Below are positions 1,470 through 21,818 of a stretch of DNA of 24,739 nucleotides, piece by piece. The DNA is taken from positions 1 to 24,739 of the IMG/VR virus record IMGVR_UViG_3300033233_001344. One strand, 5' to 3'. The stretch is from a virus. The position numbers were made by a program, and so were the translations under genes. Under the pieces are notes generated by a model, which saw nothing but the letters and a program-made list of their open reading frames with translations, was not told the DNA's origin and did no database searches. Every line of letters starts with the position of its first letter. Position 1 is the stretch's first letter.

Positions 1470-1489
1470 CTACTCGTTTGCTCTGACAG
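1470..1489 (-). promoter_or_regulatory. Copy F of the recurrent CTGWCAG-N7-TGNTAG motif
   Basis: On the minus strand: CTGTCAG, seven bases, GAGTAG, then 12 bases to the ATG of the HNH endonuclease. The first box is preceded by GGGCTAG, as in copies A and B. No Shine-Dalgarno sits between box and start. Likely a promoter or operator; the second box is the least conserved of the set (GAGTAG in place of TGNTAG). Confidence 0.55.
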
Positions 1490-1495
1490 CTAGCC

Positions 1496-1906
1496 CTAGT
1501 TCGGTAGCTGTGCTTCGTCGATGACTCTGGTGATCTTCTCGGCCTCGGCATCGCCGAAGGTGTGCGCGTAGATGTCGCGAGCGATCGTCGGCACGTCCTG
1601 ATTGGCCCTCAGCACGGCAACGAATCGATACATGTCGGGCAGGTCGAGATAGTCGACGACGTTTCCATTGCTGAGCATGATGGAAGGCCGCAAGCGCCAC
1701 TCGTCGAAGTCGGCATCTTCACGTGGGACGTTGACCTGCGCCCAGCCGATGATCGGAACGATGAACAGCTGCCGATGATTCTCCTCGCACTCGGGATCTT
1801 CGCACGCCGCCGCGTAGACCGAGACCCACGACAGATTGGGGTCAGGCGTGAAGCCTTGGACGTCAGCGCCGGGTGGCAGAGGCTCGGGATGGGCGTTACA
1901 CGACAC
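1496..1906 (-). CDS. Hypothetical protein, 136 aa
   Basis: No family recognised. The N-terminal third is cysteine-bearing (MSCNA; ACEDPECEENHRQLF near residues 34-48, a possible C-x4-C-x3-H metal site) and the remainder is a compact acidic domain with a conserved-looking core (VVDYLDLPDMYRFVAVL). The start is GTG at 1906, chosen because motif copy C lies exactly nine bases upstream, as it does for the next gene back. Its stop at 1496-1498 is followed by copy F for the HNH gene, so this may be a single-gene transcription unit or read through into the HNH gene. Confidence 0.7.
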   Translation of the reverse strand: MSCNAHPEPLPPGADVQGFTPDPNLSWVSVYAAACEDPECEENHRQLFIVPIIGWAQVNVPREDADFDEWRLRPSIMLSNGNVVDYLDLPDMYRFVAVLRANQDVPTIARDIYAHTFGDAEAEKITRVIDEAQLPN

Positions 1907-1915
1907 GCTCCGAAT

Positions 1916-1935
1916 CTACCATGCTGCTCTGTCAG
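1916..1935 (-). promoter_or_regulatory. Copy C of the recurrent CTGWCAG-N7-TGNTAG motif
   Basis: On the minus strand: CTGACAG, seven bases (agcagca), TGGTAG, then nine bases to the GTG start of the 136-aa gene. It lies in the 48-base gap after the 258-aa gene. The short gap to the start and lack of a Shine-Dalgarno suggest a leaderless or nearly leaderless transcript. Confidence 0.6.
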
Positions 1936-1954: not shown

Positions 1955-2731
1955 TCAGATGGATTCCTCGATCGCGTCGTCGAAGGTGAAGCCTTCCGAG
2001 AGCAGCTGAATGACGTTAGCGATGGTTTCGATGTCGGTTGTTCGGCAGCTCGGCGCGTTGTCGACGCCGTCGGTGATCTCGGAGATCACGAAGCTCTCGT
2101 AGGCCACAAACTCCGATGGAGCGATAGTGATAGGCTGATCGACGTAGAACAGCCGTTCGCCGATGGACACGCGTACCGCGCAAGGGTTCGCCGTCCAGTG
2201 AGCCCAAGCCCAATCGTTACTGTTCTCGACGAAGTAGACGTCGATGAAGGTCTCTCTACGTAGCTTGTCGAGCTGGCATGCCGGGTTGTGGCATCGAGGG
2301 CAAGCTGTTGGTTTGTTCTCTGGCTCGGCTCCCCGCATCATCATGAGGTCGCGGAACAGCTGCGCTTGCTCGGCGAGCACGGGCTCCAGCTCACGCACGA
2401 CGCTCGCCGTGATTTGGCCGATCAATCCGTCGAGGAAAGTCGCGACGAGCTGCGCGATCTGATCGTGTGGGCTGACTGCGGGGTCGGATCCCGGGATGTA
2501 CCGTGTGCCGGCTGTCCCAGCCTTCGCGTTCGGTCCTTCTGCTTTGCTGTGGAGCGGGCAGAATCGGCCGAATGCACATGGGCAGGATTGGTTCGTGCCC
2601 GGGATCGTCGGTGTGGCTACACCGAACGGTTTGTGGGGCTGCCCGAAGATTGTATGACCGTAGGCTGAGGGCACCGAGGACACGTGAGGGTTCATTGGAG
2701 ATGGGTTCGAGGACGAGCCATTTTCGGTCAT
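1955..2731 (-). CDS. Hypothetical zinc-binding protein, 258 aa
   Basis: No named family recognised. Residues 1-45 are low-complexity Ser/Pro/Asn-rich. Two cysteine clusters could bind zinc: C50-x-C52-x5-C58-x2-H61 (SCPCAFGRFCPLH) and C144-x2-C147-x4-C152 (ACPRCHNPAC). Between them, residues 88-135 look helical (DQIAQLVATFLDGLIGQI and following). The C-terminal 100 residues look like a folded alpha/beta domain ending in the acidic tail DDAIEESI. It follows the AAA+ helicase gene with motif copy D in between, so it may be expressed with or just after it. The ATG start is fixed by the motif spacing of nine bases. Function unknown. Confidence 0.75.
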   Translation of the reverse strand: MTENGSSSNPSPMNPHVSSVPSAYGHTIFGQPHKPFGVATPTIPGTNQSCPCAFGRFCPLHSKAEGPNAKAGTAGTRYIPGSDPAVSPHDQIAQLVATFLDGLIGQITASVVRELEPVLAEQAQLFRDLMMMRGAEPENKPTACPRCHNPACQLDKLRRETFIDVYFVENSNDWAWAHWTANPCAVRVSIGERLFYVDQPITIAPSEFVAYESFVISEITDGVDNAPSCRTTDIETIANVIQLLSEGFTFDDAIEESI

Positions 2732-2740
2732 GCCCGAGGA

Positions 2741-2760
2741 CTACCACGCTGATCTGTCAG
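2741..2760 (-). promoter_or_regulatory. Copy D of the recurrent CTGWCAG-N7-TGNTAG motif
   Basis: On the minus strand: CTGACAG (overlapping the helicase stop codon TGA), seven bases (atcagcg), TGGTAG, then nine bases to the ATG of the 258-aa gene. Closely matches copy C, including GCRTGGTAG. Confidence 0.6.
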
Positions 2761-5189
2761 TCGTCATCGCTTCCTGTTGGATCGACGGGATCTAGAGCTG
2801 GGATGCTCGTGAGCCGCGCATCCGTCTTGCGCCAGATCCGATAGCTCTTGTGGCCGTCGGGCGCGAGCAGCTGAACGATGAAATCACGCTCGATATGCTG
2901 CGAGCGCAGCTTCTGTGACAGCAATCGCGCGTTCTTGTAGAACTGGATCCCGTGGGCGTTGGCGAGCGTTTCCATCTCCTGAAACAGCTGGAACAGCCCA
3001 AGCTCGCGGCCGACGTTCGAGGGCGCGTTGCGCGGGCGGTAGACGATCCACTTGTGGAGCAGCTCGACGAGGGGATCTTCCTCGTTGATGAACGCGATCT
3101 GCTCGCCCTGGACTGCGTTCAACAGATCGGCGACAGCCTCGGGTTCCCAGCCGACGACGCGACCAACAACGCGCGCGAGCGCGGCGAAGTCGGCCATGCG
3201 GTGAACTTCGGTTGCGCTCTCGGTGAGCGCGCCGTGCCGGATCTCGGCGACGATCTGGTTCACGTACCACATGTATTCGCCGACGATCTGCGGGCGTAGC
3301 TGCTGGATCTCTTCTTCGAGCGACTGAAACCGCGTGAACTGCTCGCGGCGATCGAGGCGCAGAATAACGCAGCGATCGGCGGTGTCCTCGCGCCGGAAGC
3401 TCGCCGGGTTCTTCGAGGCCACGGCGATGAACGCGTGCGGCTTGATCGTCGCCTCTTCGCTGTCGGTGAACAGCTTGCGCTTGGTCCATGTGCCCTTGGT
3501 CGTGTACGAGCAGATCGCGTCAGGGAGCCAGTCGATGTAGGCGTCGAGGTTGTCGAACACGGCGATCGGCGAGCGCAGGAGCAAGACGCCGAAGTCGTCT
3601 TCTTTGTTCTTCGAGAGGATCATCGGCTTGGCTTCGCCGAGCAGCGCTTGCTGGAGCAGCTGCACCGCTGATGAGTTGTGCGTGACCGTGAAATCACCGA
3701 GCAAGAATCGGCCGTCCTCATCGAGTGTGAATCCGGCGAAATCGCCTTCGCCGATTGGATCAATAGTGATGCCTGTACGCGTTACGTCTTTGATCTGATG
3801 GCGTGGATCCGGTTTCTTGCGTGGGATACGTAGCGGTAGGCCGTTCATGTCGCCGCTGATCGAAACGTGCCAGTAGGGCTCCTCGTAGCCGAGCACAAAC
3901 TTAGCCTTTGGCGGTGTTGCTCGAAGGCCGAGCGATCGAGCTAGGAAACAGATTCCATCAGCGAAGCCTCGGCGTTTTTGCACAATGTCTAAGCATCCGA
4001 GGCTGAGGTAACCGTCAGTGTCTAAGAGCCCAGCTAGAAATTGTGCTCGTGCTTCTCGTGATGCTGTGAGGTACTGCTTTGGAAAAGCTGTGCCGTCGCC
4101 GACAACCGTACCGTCGCCGTACCAGACACCGAGGAAGTAGGGATCGATTGGGAGCGGTTCCTTCTGCGGTGGAAAGTCCACTCTCGTCATGAACTGCTTG
4201 TAATCACTGCGAAAGTACGCGGTCTCACTCAGAAACTGATCTACTGAGATATCGATGATCTCTCCTCGATGCGATGAGACAAGCGTAAGGACGTGGGCAT
4301 CATTGCAAACCCACGAGTCGCCTTTGACCGGACAGATTTTGAACAACGGTCCACGGCCACGTGTTGTTGCGAGGACTCGGCGAGGTCGACTATCAGGGCC
4401 CATGAGTAGATCCCCGATTTGAACATCCTCAACCGCTTTGGTGGACCCGTCGAAACAAAGCACAGGTGTTCCAAGTTGTAGGCACTTTCCGCTGCCTGGT
4501 GCTCCTTCGAGAATCAATAGCGGCTTGGTCGGCATGAGATCGGGGAGCGCGAGCGCGAAGATCCACACGATGAATGCCATCCGCATTTGCTGGTCGGAGA
4601 TCCCACCCATGCCCGACGACGAGAACGAGAGGTGATTGACGAGCCGATCGAACAGGATCCCGTGCTCACCGACCTCGGGATCGACGTGCTTGCCACCGTC
4701 GTCGTCGATGAAGAACACGTCGTCTTCGCCGTTGACGACCTGCATGATGTTCTCGCCGTCGAGCCGCCACATTTGGCCGTTGTAGCTAGAAAAGTAAACC
4801 GTCTGGTTCTTGTAGGCCGCGAACCGCCGAACCGCGACGTGTGCTCCGTTTTGCATCGCATAGCTCCTATATCTGTCGAGGATTGCCTTGGCGGCTTCTT
4901 CGCGCTCGGTGATTCCGTAGCGCCGCTCTATGTACGTCCAGAATCGATCGCCGCCTCTACCTGGCCTCGGCATCGCCAAGATCTCTTGTGTGAGCCCGAC
5001 GCAGAGATACGGCACGTTCTCGGGCACCGCGACGAGAAATGTCGAGCCCGTCGTGATCTCAATGTTCAGGATCTCGTTCCAGATGCTGATGCGCTTGGCC
5101 CGAGCGTTAACGTAGTCCCCATCGAGCTTGACGGCGATCCGCGATCGATCGCGGGCCATGCGTGCTGATAGCTCGGCTGGGGTGGGCAT
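2757..5189 (-). CDS. AAA+ ATPase, probable replicative helicase, interrupted by an intein
   Basis: An 810-aa precursor that would splice to about 540 aa. The ATPase core has a P-loop GAPGSGK (229-235) completed by S506 after the intein, a Walker B-like AVFDNLD (543-549), a sensor-1-like IAVASKNP (588-595) and a candidate arginine finger in RREDTADR (599-606). This order resembles the D5/SF3-like ATPases of phages and plasmids, which unwind DNA at forks. Residues 1-220 show no primase motif that I recognise; residues 625-810 may be a DNA-binding C-terminal region, ending in an acidic tail. It heads the minus-strand operon, divergent from the SNF2 gene. The ATG at 5189 has no clear Shine-Dalgarno, but motif copy G lies 18 bases upstream. 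The exact family is inferred. Confidence 0.85.
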   Translation of the reverse strand: MPTPAELSARMARDRSRIAVKLDGDYVNARAKRISIWNEILNIEITTGSTFLVAVPENVPYLCVGLTQEILAMPRPGRGGDRFWTYIERRYGITEREEAAKAILDRYRSYAMQNGAHVAVRRFAAYKNQTVYFSSYNGQMWRLDGENIMQVVNGEDDVFFIDDDGGKHVDPEVGEHGILFDRLVNHLSFSSSGMGGISDQQMRMAFIVWIFALALPDLMPTKPLLILEGAPGSGKCLQLGTPVLCFDGSTKAVEDVQIGDLLMGPDSRPRRVLATTRGRGPLFKICPVKGDSWVCNDAHVLTLVSSHRGEIIDISVDQFLSETAYFRSDYKQFMTRVDFPPQKEPLPIDPYFLGVWYGDGTVVGDGTAFPKQYLTASREARAQFLAGLLDTDGYLSLGCLDIVQKRRGFADGICFLARSLGLRATPPKAKFVLGYEEPYWHVSISGDMNGLPLRIPRKKPDPRHQIKDVTRTGITIDPIGEGDFAGFTLDEDGRFLLGDFTVTHNSSAVQLLQQALLGEAKPMILSKNKEDDFGVLLLRSPIAVFDNLDAYIDWLPDAICSYTTKGTWTKRKLFTDSEEATIKPHAFIAVASKNPASFRREDTADRCVILRLDRREQFTRFQSLEEEIQQLRPQIVGEYMWYVNQIVAEIRHGALTESATEVHRMADFAALARVVGRVVGWEPEAVADLLNAVQGEQIAFINEEDPLVELLHKWIVYRPRNAPSNVGRELGLFQLFQEMETLANAHGIQFYKNARLLSQKLRSQHIERDFIVQLLAPDGHKSYRIWRKTDARLTSIPALDPVDPTGSDDD
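3675..4484 (-). other. Class 1 intein in the helicase P-loop, homing endonuclease apparently shrunken
   Basis: Intein of 270 residues (236-505 of the precursor). It begins with Cys (CLQLGTPVLCFDG), has a block B-like VCNDAHVLT (294-302) and ends FLLGDFTVTHN before Ser506, so Cys1, terminal His-Asn and +1 Ser are all present and splicing should work. It splits the Walker A motif between Lys and Ser. Two LAGLIDADG motifs can be seen, LGVWYGDG (353-360) and LAGLLDTDG (385-393), but only about 24 residues separate them, against about 85-105 in the window's other two inteins. The endonuclease is therefore probably dead. The DNA is less GC-rich than the flanking extein. Confidence 0.92.
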
Positions 5190-5207
5190 GGAGCGAGAGG
5201 GTCGTAG

Positions 5208-5227
5208 CTAACACGATGCCCTGACTG
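5208..5227 (-). promoter_or_regulatory. Copy G of the recurrent motif, reading toward the AAA+ helicase
   Basis: On the minus strand: CAGTCAG, seven bases (ggcatcg), TGTTAG, then 18 bases to the helicase ATG. It lies back to back with copy E for the SNF2 gene within the 82-base divergent intergenic region, only nine bases apart. Confidence 0.5.
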
Positions 5228-5236: not shown

Positions 5237-5256
5237 AAGTCAGGTCAGTGTGGTAG
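5237..5256 (+). promoter_or_regulatory. Copy E of the recurrent motif, reading toward the SNF2 helicase
   Basis: AAGTCAG, seven bases (gtcagtg), TGGTAG, then 15 bases to the ATG at 5272. No in-frame start codon lies closer, because TAG of the motif is itself an in-frame stop. Part of the divergent region shared with copy G. Confidence 0.5.
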
Positions 5257-5271
5257 CTCAATCGGCACGGG

Positions 5272-7872
5272 ATGCTCAAACCGGCGGCAAAACTCGATTG
5301 GTTCGTTGTGGACCAAGAAACTATCCGGCCGATCGCCGTGACTCCCGGCATTCGTGTGATCGCCGATCACATAGAGATCCACCGATCGCACTTGCCGTTG
5401 CTTGACAATGACGATGCGGCGAGGGCTCTGAGCCGGATCAGGGCATCGAGTGATCTGATCTGGGAAGGCCGAGATCTCGCCACCGAGCAGCTTGGCTTCA
5501 AGCTCCGCAACGTTCAGAAAACCGCCGTCGACTTCATCCGCTCGCGGCGCGGGACGTTGCTCGGTGACGATCCCCGTGTTGGCAAAGGGCACTTAGTCGG
5601 CACAAAAATCATGACGCCTAGTGGTTGGCAGTCGATCGAACGCCTTCGGTTTGGGGATCGGGTTTGCGGCTCTGACGGATTCTCATGTCGCGTAACTGGG
5701 GTTTTCCATCGAGGAGTTTTGCCGCTCTATCGTGTAACGTTCTCTGATGGGGCCTCAGTCCTTGTCGACGGGGATCATCGTTGGACCGCCTACAATCACA
5801 ACGCGTGGCTTCGAGGAGAGGCGCCGAAGGTCAAAGAGACGCGTGATCTAGCAACGTGCCTTTTCTCTAAGAATGGAAGCAAGCTGAAGCGCGAGTGGCG
5901 CATCCCTCTTGTGAAGCCCCTGTTACTTGAAAGCAGAACGCTTCCGATCGATCCATATCTACTCGGTGTTCTTCTCGGTGATGGCTCGTTTACTCAGCGA
6001 TGCGTGACTTTCACGGCTGGGGATTTGGGTGTGGCGCGTGAGGTTGAACGCGTTTTACCTAATGGTACTAGGTTGGCCAAACGCCAATCGAATGATCGTT
6101 GTCCGGCGTGGGGGATTCGTGGACTCGTTCACAAAAAGAATCCTGTGATCGATGCGCTTCGCGATCTCGGCTTGATGGGCCTGCATTCCTACGAAAAGTT
6201 CGTCCCAGGTTTGTACCTTTTTGCCTCTGAATTACAACGCTTAGGGCTACTGCAAGGGTTGATGGATACTGACGGCGAGCTTCACGGGAATAACAAACGT
6301 TTCGTAGGATTCAGTTCGACATCAAAAGCGCTTGTCGATGCTGTCAGGTTTCTCGTCGAGAGCTTTGGTGGAATCGCTCGACTTAGTGTGAGAGCGACTT
6401 CTAGCTATACCTACAAAGGCGAGCACAAAACTGGGCGCCCATCGTATCGTTTGACGATTTCGATGCCAGCTGGCATCAAGCCGTTTCGTTCACGTCAAGG
6501 CTATCGTGATCGCCCGAAGTTTCAACCAGCGCGACACTTTGCTTCGATCGAGCGCGAGGGTGAAGGTGAGGTCATCTGCATCTCCGTCGATGCACCTGAT
6601 CAGCTCTACGTCACCGAGCACTGCATTGTCACGCACAACACTCTCGCGTGCGCGTACTCGCACGATTGGAGCCTTGGCAAACTCGTGGTCATCGCGCCGC
6701 TGATGGTCCGCGAGGTTTGGCTCGGCTGGCTGCGCCGGGTGTTCCCCGGGCAAGACATCGGCATCATGACTGGCCGGCTGTTCGACCCGATCGAAGCGGC
6801 CAAGCCGATCGTGTTTGGCCACTACGACATCCTCTATGGATGGCAGGACGGCACGCAGATCGGGACGCTGATCCTCGACGAAGCGCACATGCTGACGAAT
6901 CGCAACTCGCGCCGAACGCGCGCGGCGGTGTTCCTGGCTTCCCGAGCCGAGCGCGTGATCGCAGCGACCGGCACGCCGATCTGGAACATGCCACCCGATC
7001 TGTGGAGCGTGCTCGGGCTCGTCGCGCCCGGCGCGTTCGGTAGCTATCACGACTTCGGCAATCGCTACGGGGCGCCCGAAGTCACGGAGTACGGTACGCG
7101 GTTCACCGGGCTCTCTAATGACGCTGAGCTGTCGCTGCGGCTCTCCGAGGTTATGCTGCGCCGTCGCTGGGTCGACGTCTGCGATGATCTGCCGCCGATC
7201 TCGCGCAACGTGATGATCGTCGATCTCGATGATCGACAGCGCCGCAAGCTCGACATCGCGGCCGAGAGCCTGCGCCAAGGGGATCGAACGAACACGGCCG
7301 GCGCGCTCGCACGCTACCGCGACGCGCTGTCGATGGCCAAGCTCCCAGCAGCGATCCAAGAGGCCGAGCGTTGTCTCGATCGCGGGGATTCCGTCGTCAT
7401 CTGGACGTGGCATCGCGAGCTTGCCGATTCGATCGTCGAGCTGCTCCTTGCCGGCGGCCGACAAGCCTTCAAGCTGACCGGCGACACGCCGATGAAGAAC
7501 CGCGATCAGGTTCTGAGCCAATGGCGCGAGGGGCCTGCCGCGCTCGTCGCGACGATGTCTGTGGCGCAGGTCGGCATTGATCTCAGCCACGCGCACCGCG
7601 CGATCTTCGCTGAGATCGACTACACGCCGGCCATGATCGCCCAAGCCGAGATGCGGACGTTCGCGCCGACGCGGCCGATGAACGTGACCTACGTCGTCGC
7701 CGATCACTTCGTGGACCGCAAGATCATCGCGGCGCTGCACCGCAAGCTCGAAGCGGCGTCGCCGCTCGGGGTCGGCTCTGGTGAGGGCGCTATCGCGTCG
7801 ATCGACGCTGCGTTCCGTGGGCCCGAGGAGATCGCTGACATGGATCGCTTTCTTCGGGACTTGTTGGCATGA
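5272..7872 (+). CDS. SNF2-family (SF2) helicase/translocase, interrupted by an intein
   Basis: An 866-aa precursor that splices to about 515 aa. Motif I is LLGDDPRVGK (96-105) plus T457 after the intein; motif II is LILDEAHML (533-541); motif III is AATGTPI (564-570); motif V lies in ATMSVAQVGIDLS (760-772); motif VI is QAEMRTFAPTRP (791-802), the degenerate form in which the usual R-x-GQ is replaced. These proteins use ATP to move on duplex DNA; in phages they occur next to replication and recombination genes. It lacks the accessory domains of chromatin remodellers. It opens the plus-strand operon; the stop overlaps the next start (ATGA). The start at ATG 5272 follows motif copy E. The long antisense reading frame over its 3' half is a codon-bias shadow. 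Confidence 0.93.
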   Translation: MLKPAAKLDWFVVDQETIRPIAVTPGIRVIADHIEIHRSHLPLLDNDDAARALSRIRASSDLIWEGRDLATEQLGFKLRNVQKTAVDFIRSRRGTLLGDDPRVGKGHLVGTKIMTPSGWQSIERLRFGDRVCGSDGFSCRVTGVFHRGVLPLYRVTFSDGASVLVDGDHRWTAYNHNAWLRGEAPKVKETRDLATCLFSKNGSKLKREWRIPLVKPLLLESRTLPIDPYLLGVLLGDGSFTQRCVTFTAGDLGVAREVERVLPNGTRLAKRQSNDRCPAWGIRGLVHKKNPVIDALRDLGLMGLHSYEKFVPGLYLFASELQRLGLLQGLMDTDGELHGNNKRFVGFSSTSKALVDAVRFLVESFGGIARLSVRATSSYTYKGEHKTGRPSYRLTISMPAGIKPFRSRQGYRDRPKFQPARHFASIEREGEGEVICISVDAPDQLYVTEHCIVTHNTLACAYSHDWSLGKLVVIAPLMVREVWLGWLRRVFPGQDIGIMTGRLFDPIEAAKPIVFGHYDILYGWQDGTQIGTLILDEAHMLTNRNSRRTRAAVFLASRAERVIAATGTPIWNMPPDLWSVLGLVAPGAFGSYHDFGNRYGAPEVTEYGTRFTGLSNDAELSLRLSEVMLRRRWVDVCDDLPPISRNVMIVDLDDRQRRKLDIAAESLRQGDRTNTAGALARYRDALSMAKLPAAIQEAERCLDRGDSVVIWTWHRELADSIVELLLAGGRQAFKLTGDTPMKNRDQVLSQWREGPAALVATMSVAQVGIDLSHAHRAIFAEIDYTPAMIAQAEMRTFAPTRPMNVTYVVADHFVDRKIIAALHRKLEAASPLGVGSGEGAIASIDAAFRGPEEIADMDRFLRDLLA
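5587..6639 (+). other. Class 3 intein (W-C-T type) in the SNF2 P-loop, with LAGLIDADG endonuclease
   Basis: Intein of 351 residues (106-456 of the precursor). It begins with Gly (GHLVGTKIMTPSGW) instead of Cys or Ser, so standard class 1 splicing is impossible. The class 3 triad is complete: Trp171 two residues after block B His169 (VDGDHRW), Cys436 at block F position 4 (EVICISVDAP), and Thr454 in the terminal THN, followed by +1 Thr457. In this class the block F Cys is the first nucleophile. The two LAGLIDADG motifs, LLGVLLGDGSF (230-240) and LLQGLMDTDGEL (326-337), have normal spacing, so the endonuclease may be active. It splits GK|T of Walker A. Confidence 0.9.
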
Positions 7873-8369
7873 TAGATCGCGCGATCAGTATGCGGTTCTC
7901 ACGAACGGCTGAGATTGATTTGTGTCCGGCGTGCCCTAGATCCGTGCGCCATGAATGGCGTTGTCATTGGTGTCGAGGGCCGTTGTTCTTTTTCTGTGAC
8001 AGCTGCTCTACCCCCAATAGCATTATCGCTCAAGTATTGATCCACCACCAAGTAACGTGCACCAACGGAGATAGGTGGAGCGTTCCGGAGCCGCTGTGGT
8101 GGCTAGAGCGTTGGCGCGAATTGAAATGGGAGCCAGAGCGAGAGATCAAAGCTCCGATAAAGCACAAGCCCAAGCCGAAACGATCGCGGGGCGATGATCC
8201 GTCTGTTGCTTTCCACTTGTCGGACTCAGTTGATGGCTCCGAGGATGAAGATGATTTCAAGCGCGACCTACCAGATCACTGGGCCGAATTCGTCGTGAGG
8301 CGCATCGGAGATGACGAGGAAACCGAATGGGTGCCAGAGTTGGATCTTGTTAATGAGCTTGAAGAATAA
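7869..8369 (+). CDS. Hypothetical protein with three CxxC pairs, 166 aa
   Basis: No family recognised. The N-terminal 50 residues hold three CxxC pairs, C19/C22, C32/C35 and C43/C46 (LCPAC, RCHWC, FCDSC), enough to bind one or more zinc ions as zinc ribbons. A basic linker (KHKPKPKRSRGDD, about 123-135 minus 20) leads to an acidic C-terminal half (DGSEDEDDFKRD; EEDE-type end ELEE). Such layouts suit a nucleic-acid or protein adaptor. The ATG overlaps the SNF2 stop (ATGA), so it is probably co-translated with that helicase. Confidence 0.75.
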   Translation: MIDRAISMRFSRTAEIDLCPACPRSVRHEWRCHWCRGPLFFFCDSCSTPNSIIAQVLIHHQVTCTNGDRWSVPEPLWWLERWRELKWEPEREIKAPIKHKPKPKRSRGDDPSVAFHLSDSVDGSEDEDDFKRDLPDHWAEFVVRRIGDDEETEWVPELDLVNELEE

Positions 8370-8811
8370 GCGTCCTTCACCGCATTCGTGCAAGTATCCC
8401 TACAAGCGCTGTAAGCGCTGTCGACGGAATGCTCGACGTCGAGAACAGCGGCGGCTATGCAACCCATCCGCTGTGATCAAAGGGGATATGAGCGACTTGG
8501 ATCTGAAACAGCTCCAAAAGCTAATTGACGCCGACGCTGAACTTTGGAATGGGGGCTGGGAGAACGGCTGGCGCTGTGCCGGCTGCAATGTAACTGCTCT
8601 TCAGCTTGCGTTAGAGCTAGACGAAAAAATGGAGCCTAGAGGTTTGTGCCATCGTTGCCTCGAATGCGTCTTCTTGCATACATCCGCATTGATTCTAGAA
8701 GTTGAAACCTTGCGCGCAGAAAGGGCACGCGCCAAGAGCAGCGGCAGTGATCGCGTGTATGGCGTTCCTCGTGGGCGCCTCAGGCTTCCTACATTTTCAA
8801 AACGAAAGTAG
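8353..8811 (+). CDS. Hypothetical cysteine-rich protein, about 152 aa
   Basis: No family recognised. With the ATG at 8353 it overlaps the previous gene by 17 bases and starts MSLKNKRPSPHSCKYPY. Residues 12-36 are very basic with cysteines (YKRCKRCRRNARRREQRR), and the middle has a C75-x2-C78 pair and a C99-x2-C102-x2-C105 cluster (LCHRCLEC), so zinc binding is likely. A later start at 8488 (MSDLDLKQL) is possible: AAAGGGG lies just before it, but only two bases away, which is too close for a good ribosome site. The start is therefore uncertain; the frame from 8488 onward is more secure. Confidence 0.55.
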   Translation: MSLKNKRPSPHSCKYPYKRCKRCRRNARRREQRRLCNPSAVIKGDMSDLDLKQLQKLIDADAELWNGGWENGWRCAGCNVTALQLALELDEKMEPRGLCHRCLECVFLHTSALILEVETLRAERARAKSSGSDRVYGVPRGRLRLPTFSKRK

Positions 8812-8815
8812 CGCC

Positions 8816-8989
8816 TTGCCTGAGCCCAAGAAGCAGCCGTGGATCTGCCCGTGCTGTCGAGGGCCGCTGAACCGTTGGCGCCAGCGCGTGCAGATCATTT
8901 GTCGAGGCAAGCGAGTAGCCTTCGATCGCTGTTACAGCGTCTGCTTGACCTGCAAAGTTCGCGTGGTTCTGCACGCACATCGCGGCTAG
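8816..8989 (+). CDS. Small zinc-ribbon-like protein, about 57 aa (start uncertain)
   Basis: The recognisable part is a two-knuckle zinc ribbon: ICPCCRGPL near the start and SVCLTCKVRVVL near the end, with a basic segment between. TTG at 8816, four bases after the previous stop, gives the least overlap; ATG at 8759 (76 aa) or 8702 (95 aa) would read through the 3' end of the previous gene. Its stop TAG is immediately followed by motif copy A. Function unknown. Confidence 0.5.
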   Translation: MPEPKKQPWICPCCRGPLNRWRQRVQIICRGKRVAFDRCYSVCLTCKVRVVLHAHRG

Positions 8990-9009: not shown

Positions 9010-9019
9010 ACCTGAACAC

Positions 9020-12040: not shown

Positions 12041-12043
12041 TTC

Positions 12044-13611: not shown

Positions 13612-13634
13612 CAGCCAGCAGAAAGAAGAAAGTC

Positions 13635-14439: not shown

Positions 14440-14444
14440 CGGCT

Positions 14445-14648
14445 CTAGATGAACCAGCGGATTACCGTGATCACGCCGATCACGAGCAGCACGAAGTTGA
14501 TCAGGCGGAACACGCGATCGATGGCGATGAGTCCGGCGCGCGTGGCTCGCGGGTACTTCGCTTCGAGCAGCTCGACGCGCGCGATCATGACCTCGGCGTC
14601 GGTCATCTCGTGAACGCTCGCTACAGGATCAGCCTCAGCCTCGTTCAT
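14445..14648 (-). CDS. Small single-pass membrane protein, 67 aa
   Basis: Starts MNEAEADPVASVHEMTDAEV, continues with an amphipathic helix (IARVELLEAKYPRATRAGLI) and ends in one hydrophobic segment, LINFVLLVIGVITVIRWFI (about residues 48-66), which would span the membrane. Its ATG overlaps the stop of the kinase gene (ATGA), so the pair is co-translated. A tail-anchored protein beside a kinase could bring the kinase, or its target, to the membrane; this is inference. No named family recognised. The downstream end faces the terminator region. Confidence 0.75.
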   Translation of the reverse strand: MNEAEADPVASVHEMTDAEVMIARVELLEAKYPRATRAGLIAIDRVFRLINFVLLVIGVITVIRWFI

Positions 14649-15478
14649 GGGATCAAGCTCACGCGTGAGCTGCGCAGCCGCGAGCGACCGAGCCCGCGCA
14701 GGACTTTGATCCGACGCTTCAGCTCGGTGCCGGTGACGCCGAGATCGATGATCTTCACCTTGCCGGTCTTGGGATCGAGCGCGATGTTGCCCGAATGGAT
14801 GTCGCGCCACTTGATCCCGATGCTCTTGAGCTTCAGCGCTGCGTTGAGCGTGCCGAGCGTGAGATCATCGCAGCCATACTCGCCGCACAGATCATCAGCC
14901 GTCGAGTACCCGTCGACGACATCGACGATCTGGAACAGGCTCCCATTCTCATCGACTTCTCGGCGTTCATCGGGGCTCAGCGGGATCAGGCGATCGACGA
15001 CGAGCGCGTAGACGGGCGTCGTCTCGCCGGTATCGATCGACGTGCCGCCCTGCTTGAGCTTGTAGACCGCGTGGATCTTCGGCACGACGCCGGTCTTCTG
15101 GGCCTGTAGCAACGCGGCGACGTCTTCGGTGTCGCGCGTGAACTTGATGACCTTGGTCTTGCCCGGCGCCGTGTACGCGCACGCGAACACGCCGCAGCCG
15201 AGTTTCTTCTGGCGCTCGCGCTTGCCCTTGAACAGCGTTCGCTCTTGGTTCGGCGTCAGGCACACGCGGTATGAGCCGAATGGATACTTCGGCATGAACT
15301 TCTTGCCGACGATCAAGCAACCATCCTCGTCGGGGCGCGGCGGCGCGTAGGCCGGATCGACTTCCTCGTCAGTCGGGACGAACGTCGGAGCGTCGGAGTG
15401 CACCGTTGTTTGCCCGAGAGATCGCCTGGGGCGCGGGCCGAGCCCGAGCTTTGCGCCGAGATCTGCAAGCCAGCTCAT
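14645..15478 (-). CDS. Protein kinase-like protein
   Basis: A 277-aa protein with the main marks of the eukaryotic-type protein kinase fold: a glycine-rich loop LGCGVFACAY (93-102), the ATP-binding lysine in KVIKFTRD (Lys112), a catalytic loop WRDIHSGNIALD (224-235; Asp226, Asn231 in place of HRDxxxxN) and a DLG metal motif in VKIIDLGVT (Asp245). The chain ends only about 30 residues after DLG, so the usual C-lobe is heavily reduced. The first 90 residues are not kinase-like. Phage kinases often modify host proteins; the target here is unknown. It lies divergent from the polymerase operon and is co-translated with the small membrane protein. A TGATAG box ten bases before the ATG resembles half of the recurrent motif. 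Confidence 0.75.
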   Translation of the reverse strand: MSWLADLGAKLGLGPRPRRSLGQTTVHSDAPTFVPTDEEVDPAYAPPRPDEDGCLIVGKKFMPKYPFGSYRVCLTPNQERTLFKGKRERQKKLGCGVFACAYTAPGKTKVIKFTRDTEDVAALLQAQKTGVVPKIHAVYKLKQGGTSIDTGETTPVYALVVDRLIPLSPDERREVDENGSLFQIVDVVDGYSTADDLCGEYGCDDLTLGTLNAALKLKSIGIKWRDIHSGNIALDPKTGKVKIIDLGVTGTELKRRIKVLRGLGRSRLRSSRVSLIP

Positions 15479-15496
15479 ACGCCCTACGCTATCAGG

Positions 15497-15505
15497 TTAT
15501 CCACA
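15497..15505 (+). other. Exact DnaA-box match (TTATCCACA) in a divergent intergenic region
   Basis: TTATCCACA equals the consensus of the strongest bacterial DnaA boxes. It lies in the 185-base gap between the kinase (minus) and the polymerase operon (plus), with an AT-richer patch (15558-15568) nearby. Only one exact box is seen, so an origin is possible but not established; it could also be a DnaA-controlled promoter site or chance. Confidence 0.4.
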
Positions 15506-15565
15506 GGATGTTCACAGCGACGTAGAAATCGCGATCCCTGTCAGCGTTTTCCAGCTCGAAAAATA

Positions 15566-15595
15566 TTGACGCGATCGATCGCGATTCGCTACAAG
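15566..15595 (+). promoter_or_regulatory. Possible sigma70-type promoter for the polymerase operon
   Basis: TTGACG at 15566-15571 and TACAAG at 15590-15595 are 18 bases apart and preceded by an AT-rich stretch (GAAAAATATTGAC). The spacing and direction suit transcription of the 214-aa and polymerase genes, with a leader of about 60 bases carrying a good ribosome site (AGGGGG near 15649). This contrasts with the leaderless-looking sites elsewhere. Confidence 0.45.
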
Positions 15596-15663
15596 TGCCT
15601 CTCGCAATTCAGCAACGGAGTTGGTGCCGTTGCTTCAACACATAGCCAGGGGGCTGGCGTTCA

Positions 15664-16308
15664 ATGCTCGATCTCAATCTCGGTCGCGTCCTAGATCTGT
15701 GCGGCGATTCTGCTCTGAATCTCATCTGCCGCCACGAGTCATGTAAACGGCCCGAGCTGCACAGCTTCCACGAGCTGAAACGCACGCCCGGGGTCGGCTA
15801 TCGAACGCGCAGCAAGCGCCACGTCAATCAGCCGTGGCAAGCACAGAGCGCGAGTGCGCTGCGTGCTTCGGTGCTCGGAGCGGTATCGATCGTCGAGCCG
15901 CGCAGCTTCGCGATGATCTTGCGCGAGGTCCGTGACGACTACGGTGGTTGCTTGGACCGTTCGGTCCATCGGCATCTTCGAGCGCTGTGTGTGTCCGGCG
16001 CGGTCATCAAGCTGTCGTGGAAGCACGTTCACGCGTACCTGCTACCGGGTAGCAAGCTGATCGCCGATCCCGGGCTCGTCTACGAGCAGATCCTCTCAAT
16101 GTCACGAGCGAGCGGATTTTCGAGGGATATCTCTGACGAGGAGCTGAGTGCACGTAGAGCAGCGGGAATAAAAACAACCACAGCGCGAAAGAAGGCGGCT
16201 GAGGAAAAGGGTACAGCGCATCGATGGCCTGCCAACGGTCACAAAGAGGATCGAGAATGGCAAGGGGCTGAAGGCTGTGATGAAGTTCGAAATACCAGAG
16301 TAAAGTAG
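15664..16308 (+). CDS. Putative winged-helix protein with a zinc knuckle, 214 aa
   Basis: Residues 22-36 hold C-x4-C-x5-H-x2-H (CRHESCKRPELHSFHE), the same knuckle as in the protein encoded at 12306. Residues 65-118 read like a winged helix-turn-helix (ALRASVLGAVSIVEPRSF, then helices to VSGAVIKLSWKH), so DNA binding is plausible. The C-terminal 75 residues are charged and basic, probably disordered. It is the first gene of the polymerase operon, with AGGGGG 10 bases before the ATG, and its TAG stop is followed directly by the polymerase GTG. It may be a regulator or replication accessory protein; no named family was recognised. Confidence 0.65.
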   Translation: MLDLNLGRVLDLCGDSALNLICRHESCKRPELHSFHELKRTPGVGYRTRSKRHVNQPWQAQSASALRASVLGAVSIVEPRSFAMILREVRDDYGGCLDRSVHRHLRALCVSGAVIKLSWKHVHAYLLPGSKLIADPGLVYEQILSMSRASGFSRDISDEELSARRAAGIKTTTARKKAAEEKGTAHRWPANGHKEDREWQGAEGCDEVRNTRVK

Positions 16309-19281
16309 GTGGCAGCCGTCGCCGAGCAGCGCGTGAGCTTGCCGCTGTTGCGCGGCTCAGCCGAGGGTGCTGACTGCCTGACGTGCCCGTTTTCGCATGA
16401 AGGCCAGCCAAGCAGGCCCGTGTTCTCGGAGCATCCCGAGAATCCGCTGTGGATCTTGATCGGCGAAGGCCCTGGTTTCAACGAAGTGCGCTTTGGCCGT
16501 CCATTCTGTGGGGCATCGGGTTCCGAGGTCGACAAGATCCTGACGAAGATCGGCCGACCGCGCGAGGAGATTTTTGTAGGAAATGCGACGCTGTGTTTGC
16601 CTAAGCCCGGTAGCACTGACGTTCACAGAAACCAAGCCGCAGCGGCATGCAAGACGCGACTACAGCTAGAGCTGTCGCAGTTCCCCGGCATCCCAATCTT
16701 GACGCTCGGTGCCGTCGCCGCGCGTAGCGTCATTCCGAAAGCTGCGCTCGATGCGATCGATCCGCCTGACGTCCCCGAGTCAAAGCAGAAGCGCCAGAAG
16801 AAGCGCCAGAGTGCTGAGACCGACGCGAAACAGAAGCGCGAAAAGCGGCTCGGCAAGCTGGAGCTGCGGATCTTCAAGGAGCTGCTCGACTACCACAAGC
16901 GCGGGATCGCCGACGAGATTCGGCAGCGGTTCAAGAAGAAAGCCACGCACGCTCAGATCGAGGAGCGGCTAGAGCTAGAGCGAGCGCGCCAGGGCATCGA
17001 GATCAAGGCCAAGGCTGATGCGCTCGTCGAGCTGGAGCAGCTCGAAATCGAGAAGGCCAAGAAGCCCAAGAAGAAGAAGCCGATCAAGATCGGCGACATC
17101 GTGAGCACGTGCTTCGAGGTCGACGTCGACGGCTCGGGGCCGCGCCCGGTGATTCCAGGGATCCATCCGGCGGCTTTGTTACGCGGCGGCGGGCGAAGCA
17201 TCGCGGGCAGCCACACGCCCGATCTCGCGTTCGTGAATCTGACGTACGACTTCGGCAAGATCGATGCGCTAGCGCGCGGCAAAGACGTGCGGCTCAGGCT
17301 CACCGTCGAGGTCGAAGGCCAGGATAGCCACAAGGCGACGCGGCTATTCGTCGAGGCGATTCAGCGCGCGTTCGACGAGGGCGAGGTCGCGATCGACCTT
17401 GAGACTTACGTCGACGATCCGCTACGTCATCACGCGCTCATGGCCTACGTCGCGAAGATCCGCGCGATCGGGCTGGCGACCAAGGACAAGTCGATCTCGG
17501 TGCTCTGGGATCTGATTCAGCCGTGGGCGATGTCGTACTTCCAGTTGCTGCTGGCCTCAGCCGACATCAAGATCGTTACCCAAAATGGGATCTACGATCG
17601 AACGGTCCTACGGGCCAATGGTTACGAGATCTGCGAAGACAATTTCAGCGACAGTTTGTATTTGCACCACTCCGCGTTTCCGGGCTGCGCCCACAATCTC
17701 CAACAAATCACGGCGCAGTTCTTTGCAGTAGAGCCTTGGAAATCGGAATTTCGCCTTGGTGAAGAAGACACTTCAAAGCTGCTTACCTACAACGCGAAGG
17801 ACACTGGGGCCACTCTCGCAATCAGGCCGGCGATCGAAATCGTCGTCAAGAAAAACGCTAACGAGCGGACCTACGCAATTGATCTCAAGATGGCTGAGAT
17901 TGCTTCACGCATGCACATCGTCGGCATGCCGGTGTCGCGCGAGATCAACTCCGAGCTGCTCGCGACGTTCAGCAAGAACGTTGCCGAAGGGCGCCAGCAC
18001 GTCGAAGCAATCGCCAACGATCCCAAGCTCCACGAGGGGATCCTGCATCACCTTGCGTTGGAACAAGCCAAGATCCAGCGCAAGGCCGACACCGCCGACT
18101 TCGAGGAGCGCTACAATGTACGCCGCGCCAAAATCCTAGCCGACGAAGCCAAAGGCAAGTGGCGTTGGAAGATCTCGGCCGGCAAGCACGTCGCGGCGTT
18201 ACTCCAAGCCGTAGGCGTGAACCTGCACCAAGTTACCAAGAGCGGCTCGATCTCGACGAAGAAAGACATCCTGGAGTCGCTCGTCGATGTGCCGATCGTT
18301 CGAGATTTGTTGCTGTTCCGTGAGAACGACAAGCTCCTGTCCACATTCATCTGGCAGGTGTTCGATAGAACTATCGACGGCAAGATCATTCAACACGGCT
18401 ACGCTGATTCCAACGATCGCATTCACCCGATCTGGAACGTCCATAAGATCACCGGACGATGGGCGAGCTACGAGCCTGTGGTCTCGAACGTTCCAAAGAG
18501 CAAGTTCAAGCGGCTAGCCGATGGGACAAAGAAGATCGTTCGACCGAACTTGCGACGACAAGTCTTCGCACCAAAGGGCCGAAAGTTTGTCGGCTTCGAT
18601 CTAGCTCAGCTCGAAGCGCGGATCATCGCGCTGCTCTCAGGTGATCCGTTCTTGTGCGGTATTTTTGCATCGGGTGGTGACATCCATGCAGCGTGCGCCG
18701 AGGTCGTGTTCCCGAATTTCAAGACGCTTCAGAAGGACGATCAAAAACAGCTCCGCGATCAAGTGAAGCCCCTCGAATACGCATCGTTCTACGGCGCGAA
18801 TCCTGAGACTTGTTGGAAAGGGCTTCTGAAAGAGGGCTACAACGTCAAGCTCGCTGATGTCGCCAACTCGATCGGCAAGATCATGGGCCGCATGCCTGGA
18901 GTTACGCACTGGCAGCGTCAACAGATTGCCCGAGCTTCGACGCCACCTTACACGATTTCTAGCTTCTTACTTGGTCGGCGCCGCGTGTGGCCGATGGGCC
19001 AGATCGAAGCGACGGAAGCCCTCAACTTCGGTGTGCAATCGGCTGGTGCTGACATCATGAACACAGGGATGGCACGGCTAGCTGACAGACTGTGGTGTTA
19101 CAAGCAGGCCGAGATCATCGTGCAGGTTCATGACGCCGCAGTTGTCGAATGTTGGGCTGACGATGCCGAAGACATCAAGGCTGACATCATCGAGTGCATC
19201 TCATCGTCACATGAGGTTGGCGGGTTATCGGTGCCGTTTCCTGTTGATGCGCGCATCGGCGATCACTGGGGTGAAGTGTGA
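16309..19281 (+). CDS. Family 4-type uracil-DNA glycosylase fused to family A DNA polymerase with 3'-5' exonuclease
   Basis: A 990-aa fusion. The glycosylase part has the Fe-S cysteines C23-x2-C26, C96 and C114, motif GEGPGFNEVRFGRPFCG (52-68), FVGNATLC (89-96) and the catalytic-type GIHPAALLR (284-292). Its two halves are separated by a charged, Lys/Glu-rich, probably coiled-coil insert (about 155-260). The exonuclease has AIDLETY (361-367), QNGIYDRTVL (425-434) and LLTYNAKDT (491-499), so all DEDDy acids appear present. The polymerase has motif A VGFDLAQLEAR (Asp764), motif B KPLEYASFYG (820-829) and motif C VQVHDAAVVE (Asp942). The thumb-like region is about 520-720. It is the likely replicative polymerase. 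The GTG start directly follows the previous stop; the end overlaps the HNH gene by four bases (GTGA). Confidence 0.92.
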   Translation: MAAVAEQRVSLPLLRGSAEGADCLTCPFSHEGQPSRPVFSEHPENPLWILIGEGPGFNEVRFGRPFCGASGSEVDKILTKIGRPREEIFVGNATLCLPKPGSTDVHRNQAAAACKTRLQLELSQFPGIPILTLGAVAARSVIPKAALDAIDPPDVPESKQKRQKKRQSAETDAKQKREKRLGKLELRIFKELLDYHKRGIADEIRQRFKKKATHAQIEERLELERARQGIEIKAKADALVELEQLEIEKAKKPKKKKPIKIGDIVSTCFEVDVDGSGPRPVIPGIHPAALLRGGGRSIAGSHTPDLAFVNLTYDFGKIDALARGKDVRLRLTVEVEGQDSHKATRLFVEAIQRAFDEGEVAIDLETYVDDPLRHHALMAYVAKIRAIGLATKDKSISVLWDLIQPWAMSYFQLLLASADIKIVTQNGIYDRTVLRANGYEICEDNFSDSLYLHHSAFPGCAHNLQQITAQFFAVEPWKSEFRLGEEDTSKLLTYNAKDTGATLAIRPAIEIVVKKNANERTYAIDLKMAEIASRMHIVGMPVSREINSELLATFSKNVAEGRQHVEAIANDPKLHEGILHHLALEQAKIQRKADTADFEERYNVRRAKILADEAKGKWRWKISAGKHVAALLQAVGVNLHQVTKSGSISTKKDILESLVDVPIVRDLLLFRENDKLLSTFIWQVFDRTIDGKIIQHGYADSNDRIHPIWNVHKITGRWASYEPVVSNVPKSKFKRLADGTKKIVRPNLRRQVFAPKGRKFVGFDLAQLEARIIALLSGDPFLCGIFASGGDIHAACAEVVFPNFKTLQKDDQKQLRDQVKPLEYASFYGANPETCWKGLLKEGYNVKLADVANSIGKIMGRMPGVTHWQRQQIARASTPPYTISSFLLGRRRVWPMGQIEATEALNFGVQSAGADIMNTGMARLADRLWCYKQAEIIVQVHDAAVVECWADDAEDIKADIIECISSSHEVGGLSVPFPVDARIGDHWGEV

Positions 19282-19748
19282 CGGAGATCGAACGATTCTG
19301 GTCGAAGACGGCTCGACGCGGCAAGTGCATCGTTTGGAAAGCAGGCTGCGCGAAAAATGGATATGGATTGTTCAGCGTGAAGACACCAAAAGGCTCGAAG
19401 CGGCGGCACAAAACGATCTACGCTCACCGTTACATCTACGCGCGCGTGTTCGGTTCGATTCCGCCGAAGAAAGACGTGATGCACTCATGTGATCGGCGCG
19501 GGTGCGTTTCGCTTCAGCATCTCTCACCCGGTTCGCGCAAGCGGAACATGGAAGATGCCGTTGCTAAGCAGCGAACGCAGCGCGGTGAAGATCGACCAAC
19601 AGCAAAGCTGACAGCAAAGTCTGTTCGTGAAATTCGTCGTCGATGTGCTCGTGGAGAATCACAGGCCAGCATCGCGGCCGATCTCGGTGTTCATCAGGTT
19701 ACCGTCGGCAAAGCCGCTACCGGTAAGACGTGGAAGCACATCAAATGA
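19278..19748 (+). CDS. HNH endonuclease with C-terminal helix-turn-helix
   Basis: A 156-aa homing-type nuclease. The core has GKCIVWKAG near the start, AHRYIYARVFGSIPP (49-63) and the HNH pair DVMHSCDRRGCVSLQHL (66-82). The C-terminal half (KLTAKSVREIRRRCARGE, QASIAADLGVHQVTVGK) is a typical resolvase-like helix-turn-helix that would give sequence recognition. Placed between polymerase and helicase genes, it overlaps both by four bases (GTGA and ATGA), so it does not break the operon. Its DNA is less GC-rich than its neighbours, pointing to transfer. Confidence 0.9.
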   Translation: MTEIERFWSKTARRGKCIVWKAGCAKNGYGLFSVKTPKGSKRRHKTIYAHRYIYARVFGSIPPKKDVMHSCDRRGCVSLQHLSPGSRKRNMEDAVAKQRTQRGEDRPTAKLTAKSVREIRRRCARGESQASIAADLGVHQVTVGKAATGKTWKHIK

Positions 19749-21451
19749 TGCTGACAGAGGAGCAACAGGCGATCACCGGCTTCGCCGCGAGCGACAACGG
19801 CAACCTCGTCGTCGAGGCAGGCGCCGGCACTGGCAAGACGTTCTGCCTTCTCGAAGTGCTGAAGGTTCTGCCGCAGCAATCCGCGCTCGTGTGTGCGTTC
19901 AATAAGCCGATCGCCGCCGAGATCCTGGCTAAGCTCCCGACGTTGCCGCGAACGCGCCTCGTTCACGTCAAGACGTTCCACGCGCAAGGGCTCGCGATCG
20001 TCAAGAAACGCTTTCCGAGCATCGTCGTCGCATCGGAGTCTACCGAGGAAATCATCAACAAGGTCGGCACGGCAGCGAGCTTCAAAGCCAAGCGGGCTGC
20101 CGTGAAGATCCTGCGAACGTGGAAGGAGCAGACGACGGCACCCACGCAGGTTCCGAGCGACGAGGAGATCCTGGATCTCGGGTTCGATCGCGATCTGTTC
20201 GGGCGCATCTCGGACGGCGAGATCCAGACCGCGATCAATGCCGTGCGCGCGGGCTACGCGCTGTCGCTCGAAGACAAGGCGCCCAAGTCGATCGACTTCT
20301 GCGACATGGTGTGGCTACCGCTCGCGCACGATCTCGAACTGACGTCGCGCTACAAAGCCGTTCTCGTTGACGAGCTACAGGACATCTCGCCGCCGCAGTT
20401 CGAGCTGATGCGCCGACTGTTGGTCCCCGGTGGGCGGTTCATCGGCGTCGGCGATCACTGGCAACAGATCTACGGCTGGCGCGGTTCGATGGGCAGCGGC
20501 GCATGGGCGCTCGCGCGCAAGCAGTTCAACGCCACGTTCCTGCCGCTCACGGTGTCGTTTCGTTGCGCTGAGAACATCGTGCGCGAAGCCCAGAAGCGCG
20601 TGCCGATGCTCCGAGTGCACCCCGATGCCGTGCCGGGTTCGGTCTCGCACGCGAAGATGTCACAGCTGCCACGGCTGCTCGCGCGCGGCTACTCCGAGAC
20701 GATCCACACATTCATCCTGTCGCGCAACAACGCGGCGCTGCTCGACGTCGCGATGTTCTTGTGGCGTGAGAAGGTTCCGTTCCAGATCAACGCCGGCCGC
20801 GAGATCCTAGAGCCGCTGTACGGCGTGCTCGACGGGCTTCGCCTGACCTCGACCGAAGACTTCAAGCTCAGCGTCCAGCAATGGCACGCCGCCGAGATGT
20901 TCCGCGCCGAGAAGTCTGGCTCGACGGCATGGGCCGATCGCGTCGACGAACAAGCGAAGATGCTGCTCGCGGCTGGAGCGAATACGCAGCCCAAGAAGAT
21001 CAAGCAGCTGTTCCAGGAGATGCTCAAGGCCAGCGGCTCGGGCGTGCTGCTCTCGACGGTGCACAAGGTCAAGGGCCTCGAAGCCGATCGCGTGTTCCTG
21101 CTCAAGCAAACGTTCGCATGCGGTCGAGTTATCGACGACGAATTCGGCGATGATCGACCGCCGCCGCAAGAGGAGATCAACATCGAGTACGTTGCGATCA
21201 CGCGCGCTCGCGAGCATCTGACCTGGGTCGACATCGATCCGCAGGCTCACGTCGTGCCTGATGCCGAGGACGAGCTTGACAGGATGCCTGAGTGCACCGA
21301 CGGCCTATCGATGGACGAGATAAGCGAGCTTTTCGTCTACGCCGAGCGCCGAGCGCTGGAGCTGATGGAGAGCGACGAAGCGCTCGCCGATCGCTGGATG
21401 GTCCGCGCCGAGATGTTGAACAAGGCGATGAAAGAAGCCCTATGCAGGTAG
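19745..21451 (+). CDS. UvrD/Rep-like SF1 DNA helicase
   Basis: About 568 aa. Motif I is EAGAGTGKT (24-32 from this start), motif II LVDELQDIS, motif III GDHWQQIYGWRG, motif IV in TVSFRCAENI, motif V STVHKVKGLEADRVFLL, and motif VI YVAITRAREHL. It is shorter than UvrD (about 720 aa), mainly in the 1B/2B insertions. It should unwind DNA 3' to 5', in replication restart, repair or recombination. The ATG at 19745 overlaps the HNH stop as ATGA; a second ATG follows at once, and an in-frame ATG at 19730 is possible but would overlap more. Confidence 0.92.
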   Translation: MMLTEEQQAITGFAASDNGNLVVEAGAGTGKTFCLLEVLKVLPQQSALVCAFNKPIAAEILAKLPTLPRTRLVHVKTFHAQGLAIVKKRFPSIVVASESTEEIINKVGTAASFKAKRAAVKILRTWKEQTTAPTQVPSDEEILDLGFDRDLFGRISDGEIQTAINAVRAGYALSLEDKAPKSIDFCDMVWLPLAHDLELTSRYKAVLVDELQDISPPQFELMRRLLVPGGRFIGVGDHWQQIYGWRGSMGSGAWALARKQFNATFLPLTVSFRCAENIVREAQKRVPMLRVHPDAVPGSVSHAKMSQLPRLLARGYSETIHTFILSRNNAALLDVAMFLWREKVPFQINAGREILEPLYGVLDGLRLTSTEDFKLSVQQWHAAEMFRAEKSGSTAWADRVDEQAKMLLAAGANTQPKKIKQLFQEMLKASGSGVLLSTVHKVKGLEADRVFLLKQTFACGRVIDDEFGDDRPPPQEEINIEYVAITRAREHLTWVDIDPQAHVVPDAEDELDRMPECTDGLSMDEISELFVYAERRALELMESDEALADRWMVRAEMLNKAMKEALCR

Positions 21452-21798
21452 AGATGAAGAACGGCCACTCGAACGGTCACAGCAATGGCCACAACAAGAC
21501 TACACAGCCTGAAGTCGACGAGGAGCCCGAGAAAGTTCGGCTGTGCTGCGCTCGTTTGGATGTCGACGATTGGTGTGCGTTACCGGACAAGCATGACAGC
21601 CCATGCAAAGGCCCATCACGGCACTACGGCCCGATCGCGCCGCCAGCCTGGGAGATGCAGAAGCGCAGATGGTGGAGCGCAAGAGCTGAGGTGCTTCGAG
21701 CAGAGGTCAAGGCCGGCACGATGACGCACGCTGCCGCTGAACGTCAGATCGAAATTGCGTGGCTCTTTGTTAGCAAGTCGGGCGTCTCGCGAGGCTAG
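21442..21798 (+). CDS. Hypothetical protein with NGHS repeats and zinc-type cysteines, 118 aa
   Basis: The N-terminus carries a short repeat, NGHSNGHSNGHN (about residues 7-18), likely disordered and able to bind metal. It is followed by a Cys/His patch, LCCARLDVDDWCALPDKHD then SPCKG, of the C-x-H-x-C kind common in small phage proteins. The C-terminal half is helical (WWSARAEVLRAEVKAG; AAERQIEIAWLFV). Either ATG 21442 (ten-base overlap with the helicase) or ATG 21454 (preceded by AGGTAGAG) may be used. Its TAG stop adjoins motif copy B. Function unknown. Confidence 0.65.
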   Translation: MQVEMKNGHSNGHSNGHNKTTQPEVDEEPEKVRLCCARLDVDDWCALPDKHDSPCKGPSRHYGPIAPPAWEMQKRRWWSARAEVLRAEVKAGTMTHAAAERQIEIAWLFVSKSGVSRG

Positions 21799-21818
21799 CT
21801 GTCAGAGCGACGTGCTAG
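21799..21818 (+). promoter_or_regulatory. Copy B of the recurrent CTGWCAG-N7-TGNTAG motif
   Basis: CTGTCAG, seven bases (agcgacg), TGCTAG, AC, then eight bases to the GTG start of the methylase gene: the same arrangement as copy A. The preceding bases GGCTAG include the stop codon of the upstream gene. Suggests the methylase and downstream genes have their own promoter. Confidence 0.65.

Follow-up and report, generated by a model that had tools for sequence, protein, structure and literature searches.

The question raised by this locus is what reads a two-part motif that stands, again and again, just before the start codons of a virus. The window, i.e. the whole stretch of DNA analysed (24,739 bases; IMG/VR record IMGVR_UViG_3300033233_001344, positions 1 to 24,739), has a guanine-cytosine (GC) content of 59%. 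A first-pass annotation described seven copies of CTGWCAG-N7-TGNTAG in it as a possible unusual promoter making leaderless messenger RNAs (mRNAs). Based on their sequence, these sites are probably phage promoters read by sigma-A RNA polymerase with help from PafBC of the host, or from a close paralogue of this activator. The novelty lies in the number of DNA-damage promoters of this class in phages and not in a new polymerase, and the promoter layout suggests that these phages run genes off the DNA-damage alarm of their host.

All seven sites were found in place, but the exact pattern holds for only four: 1916-1935 and 2741-2760 on the minus strand, 8990-9009 and 21799-21818 on the plus strand, compared with an expectation of 0.00 in 100 dinucleotide shuffles. 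The other three carry one mismatch (CAGTCAG at 5208-5227, minus strand) or two (AAGTCAG at 5237-5256, plus strand; second box GAGTAG at 1470-1489, minus strand). With up to two mismatches allowed, 13 matches are found in the window, where 2.0 are expected and the shuffles give 6 at most. An eighth site, absent from the first-pass annotation, lies at 12488-12507 (plus strand) and is conserved in the closest relative; weaker matches at 19082 and 19608 are less convincing. Across the eight sites the first box reads TGWCAG in six and AGTCAG in two. TGTCRG-N10-TA(G) is a better description of the motif, the 10-base gap being the strictly conserved property. The motif is not palindromic, and all seven originally listed sites are oriented toward the downstream gene, at the annotated distances from the start codons. 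The GGCTAG reported ahead of the 8990 and 21799 sites is indeed there, and precedes the 1470 site as well. From the first box through the TANNNT hexamer, the sites are:

1467 to 1488, minus strand: PafBC-like promoter TGTCAG..TAGGGT, followed after 12 nt by the ATG of a gene for an HNH endonuclease; extended -10 disturbed (GAGTAG)
1913 to 1934, minus strand: PafBC-like promoter TGACAG..TAGATT, TAG-to-GTG distance 9 nt; core identical in the closest relative (G001)
2738 to 2759, minus strand: PafBC-like promoter TGACAG..TAGTCC, TAG-to-ATG distance 9 nt; absent from G001
5205 to 5226, minus strand: PafBC-like promoter AGTCAG..TAGCTA, 18 nt before the ATG of a primase-like gene; divergent pair with the site at 5238 to 5259
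5238 to 5259, plus strand: PafBC-like promoter AGTCAG..TAGCTC, 15 nt before the ATG of a helicase gene
8991 to 9012, plus strand: PafBC-like promoter TGTCAG..TAGACC, TAG-to-GTG distance 10 nt
12489 to 12510, plus strand: PafBC-like site TGTCAG..TAGTGA, 114 nt upstream of a Sak4-like gene; 17 of 19 core bases kept in G001
21800 to 21821, plus strand: PafBC-like promoter TGTCAG..TAGACG, 10 nt before the GTG of a methyltransferase gene

The closest relative, found via the DNA polymerase and helicase, is IMGVR_UViG_3300044766_000192 (G001; 80,419 bp). Its two ends carry a near-identical repeat of 148 bp, so the genome is probably complete. In the shared parts, its DNA is mostly 77-94% identical to the window. 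The contigs G002-G005 are more distant (helicase 53-60% identical), and a DNA scan brought in G006-G011, of which the 85-kb G008 has 11 sites and 0 control matches. A profile of the window and G001, trained on the same sites that it scores, gave 25 matches scoring above 11 in the two together, of which 16 are distributed over G001; in Markov sequences the mean was 0.6. Counterparts in G001 exist for seven of the eight window sites. Only the 2741 site lacks one; it is missing as a block with most of its gene, and this promoter and gene (window 1955-2760) appear to move as a cassette. The 1470 site stands in G001 directly before the next gene; in the window, an HNH gene lies between the two and the downstream (-10) half of the promoter is altered at the HNH junction (1014-1489). 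The back-to-back pair in the divergent primase/helicase interval is present in the window, G001, G003 and G004.

Across nine related records, TGTCRG and TA stand 10 bases apart in 44 cases, while each of the gaps from 4 to 9 and from 11 to 16 bases occurs 0-4 times. The consensus of 37 non-redundant sites is GCnnGC-TGTCRG-A(C/G)C-n4-TG-n-TA(G/C), and at the R position of TGTCRG the relatives have A in 76% and G in 24%. In 23 of these 37 distinct sites, an open frame begins with ATG or GTG 9-11 bases after the TAG, whereas 4.6% of random positions have a start at 8-11 bases (p about 6e-22).

The motif is not confined to this family. One version of it, TGTCAGACCC-N3-TGGTAG, was scanned against IMG/VR, yielding at least 120 stretches with N10 compared to one with a spacer one base longer and 10 for the letter-reversed pattern. 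The fetched loci were reduced to 52 non-redundant ones, and the seed sites were left out of the follow-up counts. Beyond these seeds, the 52 loci hold 210 matches to TGTCRG-N10-TANNNT (201 distinct), and other gaps mostly give 1-15. The gaps 5, 15 and 16 give 38, 22 and 42 matches; the excess at gaps 4-5 and 15-16 probably stems from the motif family itself, with TATGGT inside the true site and TAGGATAGAAT overlapping it. Only 8% of the 201 further sites lie inside long open frames, compared to 53% of random positions. The fixed spacing and orientation, the short distance to start codons and this avoidance of coding sequence support well the first-pass prediction of a promoter making leaderless or nearly leaderless mRNAs. 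In the wider set the predicted leaders are bimodal, with the start codon either 6-7 bases after the -10 (leaderless) or about 24-38 bases after it.

What, then, reads these promoters? The first-pass annotation pointed to the weak last T of the -10 and considered an unusual sigma factor, a phage RNA polymerase or an operator protein. The non-conserved T is a feature of the window's own family; in other phages, 102 of 122 seed matches have a T at this position, though the scan pattern did not require it. This makes the second box probably a normal -10 (TANNNT), in most cases extended by TGN. The commonest -10 boxes among the 201 further sites are TATAAT, TATACT and TACAAT, which together with the last T ties the phage element to the sigma-A -10 and to a known class, the actinobacterial RecA-independent DNA-damage promoters (RecA-NDp). 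Their motif is tTGTCRgtg-8nt-TannnT, in which the lower-case tg is less conserved and not strictly defining (PMC5656591), and the PafBC motif of Mycobacterium tuberculosis is TGTCGG/TGTCAG-10N-TA-3N-T (PMC8151990). It is the housekeeping sigma-A holoenzyme that reads such promoters, aided by an activator at a -26 element: the HTH of PafB engages the -26 motif, PafC contacts region 4 of sigma-A, and single-stranded DNA (ssDNA) activates PafBC (PMC11804915). Given the match to this layout, an unusual sigma factor or a phage polymerase is not supported; the operator-protein option was right in spirit, in that the first box looks suited to an activator.

With transcription starting at the start codon, TA would lie at -12/-11 and TGTCRG at -28 to -23, a position that would agree with the PafB-bound -26 element (PMC11804915) and with a site at -24. 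We propose that the -10 (here mostly TAGNNN) would be read by the housekeeping sigma-A RNA polymerase of the host. A usual -35 is lacking; in its stead TGTCRG, around -28 to -23, would be the place where PafBC of the host, or a close paralogue, docks between DNA and region 4 of sigma. In the high-GC family of the window, transcription would begin at the start codon or a few bases upstream, and most of these mRNAs would thus be leaderless. Since PafBC is switched on by ssDNA, phage DNA replication or damage could couple phage transcription to the host alarm: ssDNA would turn PafBC on, and PafBC the phage promoters.

The same sigma-A leaderless promoters could also have their TGTCRG box bound by a phage-encoded protein or by another host regulator than PafBC. 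The phage consensus after TGTCRG, ACC, which 87 of the 201 further sites have, departs from the mycobacterial one; G001 encodes small HTH and ribbon-helix-helix (RHH) proteins; and most proteins are without known function. However, the mycobacterial-type TGG/TGC form (41 of the 201) occurs with the same spacing in the same loci. Furthermore, the motif is common to very different phages, ranging from 35% to 69% GC, which a host factor fits better than a single phage protein, and a WYL (PafBC-type) domain was not found in the 39 phage records searched, which favours the host's own activator. An activator other than PafBC or a close paralogue is rather unlikely. A G001 frame with an HTH before position 57532 was considered as a PafB-like activator and turned out to encode an HNH-HTH protein.

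That the whole 20-base motif is a dedicated phage promoter, served by a phage RNA polymerase or by a sigma factor of phage or alternative type, is very improbable. Two strictly spaced boxes at a short distance from start codons would suit such an enzyme, and cultured Nanopelagicales phages encode a sigma-70 factor (PMC10202952), but the wider set has the ordinary TATAAT boxes described above. Moreover, Pfam scans of most G001 proteins revealed no RNA polymerase or sigma factor, the few long replication proteins outside these scans being identified by homology to window genes. Matches to Sigma70_r4 in the relatives all fall under the curated cut-off, and those read are HNH-HTH or LuxR-type HTH proteins. 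Intergenic repeats of constant sequence, in phages of a group with an integrase gene, might also be operator or stoperator-like repressor sites instead of promoters. This is extremely unlikely, given that the motif is non-palindromic, is aimed at the downstream gene in each of the seven listed copies and stands about as far from the start codon as a -10 would. Chance similarity, for which the mismatches needed in three of the seven sites could be quoted, is refuted by the shuffle, gap and IMG/VR counts and is practically negligible.

Returning to sigma-A and PafBC, the promoter class is actinobacterial. According to PMC10202952, WhiB is exclusive to Actinobacteriota and an indicator of actinophages. 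The gene is present in 16 of the 49 contigs with the motif, including 14 of the 24 that exceed 55 kb, which points to actinobacterial hosts for the wider set, and in none of 11 control contigs, a weak, unmatched control as these are shorter than the motif contigs. In the WhiB-positive contigs G029 (about 104-112 kb) and G052 (about 96-103 kb), the sites are packed into a single region and lie mostly on the same strand, the arrangement that an early-gene block would show. A stretch of a WhiB-positive motif contig compared with cultured phages gave no match. For the window phage, an actinobacterial host phylum is inferred from the motif alone.

Several observations weigh against this assignment and against PafBC. 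Among the 37 sites of the window's family, only 14 have the last T of the -10, weak conservation even if above the 19% background (p 0.007), and the bases after TGTCRG are mostly ACC/AGC and not the mycobacterial tg. The M. smegmatis PafBC motif is reportedly not conserved in Streptomyces venezuelae (PMC9380542). WhiB was not found in the window's own family, a helicase alignment and an extended DNA pattern found no host match among 84,980 bacterial genomes, and one of the nearest sources of cultured protein matches is a Thermus phage (29-45% identity). The motif is also absent from five cultured actinophages, and Gordonia phage Orchid, with 4 matches compared to 2 control matches, is near background.

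Other routes to a host were tried. For the DNA polymerase, helicase, ThyX, packaging ATPase and methyltransferase, the matches in cultured phages and plasmids were too distant or mixed to name one. A consensus 30-mer gave three Streptomyces plasmid matches near casA, rejected as chance since they lie in a cas3-type coding sequence with GGCAGG for GGTAGA, and matches at chance level only among cultured phages. No match was found for the tRNA-Ser of G008. The packaging-ATPase candidate of G001 (L014:13871-15547) is HerA/Zot-like with a PHROG terminase match (E 1.5e-14); hardly any relatives of it exist among 50,697 cultured or deposited phages, and coverage of this virus group in databases is poor.

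On a broader scale, it is about as likely as not that actinophages in large number, most of them uncultured, employ the ssDNA-triggered PafBC pathway of the host as a main transcription switch, through which phage genes would respond directly, without SOS, to phage DNA that replicates or is damaged, and that in high-GC hosts they combine it with leaderless mRNAs. In the literature searched, no report of phages using PafBC-type promoters was found. If true, phages would sense the DNA-damage alarm of the host via an activator, not via LexA/RecA, and at many promoters per genome. This would give a concrete handle on actinophage gene timing and on SOS-free induction of actinobacterial lysogens. 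As a signature, TGTCRG-N10-TANNNT might serve to call promoters, correct start codons and point out likely actinobacterial hosts in viral metagenomes, for which assigning hosts has long been difficult. Among the proteins of G001 are ThyX, an HTH_17 protein and a member of the Phage_integrase family. The G001 group may be temperate, in which case damage-responsive promoters would have an obvious use.

The gene content of the window is that of a replication module, with a primase-like protein, an SNF2-type helicase, a PD-(D/E)XK-like nuclease, a Sak4-like protein, a DNA polymerase, a second helicase, a methyltransferase and HNH genes. The genes next to the sites are:

1014 to 1457, minus strand: HNH endonuclease, 147 amino acids (aa), PHROG 826 (E 3e-36), downstream of the 1467-1488 site
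1496 to 1906, minus strand: open reading frame for an unknown protein, 136 aa, GTG start, predicted leaderless, conserved in G001
1955 to 2731, minus strand: open reading frame for an unknown protein, 258 aa, ATG start, predicted leaderless
2757 to 5189, minus strand: primase-like protein with intein, 810 aa, Hom_end_hint and homing endonuclease domains
5272 to 7872, plus strand: SNF2-family helicase with intein, 866 aa
9020 to 9211, plus strand: 63-aa protein, GTG start, predicted leaderless
12622 to 13611, plus strand: Sak4-like ssDNA annealing / AAA_24 protein
21829 to 22764, plus strand: DNA adenine methyltransferase, 311 aa, GTG start, predicted leaderless, PHROG 56 (E 2.5e-48)

With 534 aa, the G001 counterpart of the primase-like protein shows similarity to a DNA primase PHROG (E 4e-6). 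Intein or intein-like (Hint, LAGLIDADG) insertions occur in nearly all large replication proteins of the window (2757-5189, 5272-7872, 9662-12040) and G001 (8212-14250, 14434-16956). They are not alike in the two, the DNA polymerase of the window having 990 aa and that of G001 2012 aa. In addition, window 14645-15478 (minus strand) encodes a protein weakly resembling protein kinases, including the PHROG of a host-transcription-inhibiting kinase (E 2e-4).

Compared to known systems, the phage sites are closest in layout to the RecA-NDp (recA P1-type) promoters of Mycobacterium, with which they share TGTCRG, the exact gap of 10 and the lack of a usual -35, and probably also a TANNNT -10 and an activator box that would lie around -26. 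They differ in being located in phages, many per genome and mostly predicted leaderless, and the window's family differs further in its ACC/AGC instead of tg and its weak last T. Like the leaderless sigma-A promoters of mycobacteria and mycobacteriophages (e.g. PL1/PR2, cluster O phages; PMC4351075), they have a predicted +1 at the first base of the start codon and no Shine-Dalgarno; however, those promoters are described as -35/-10 sigma-A promoters, whereas the sites described here would have an activator-type -26 box in place of the -35. DriD of Caulobacter and SiwR of M. smegmatis are, like PafBC, WYL activators acting at promoters under DNA damage. The SiwR site is a 19-bp imperfect palindrome and DriD overlaps the -35; neither is described with TGTCRG-N10-TA, the arrangement shared by the phage sites and the PafBC promoters.

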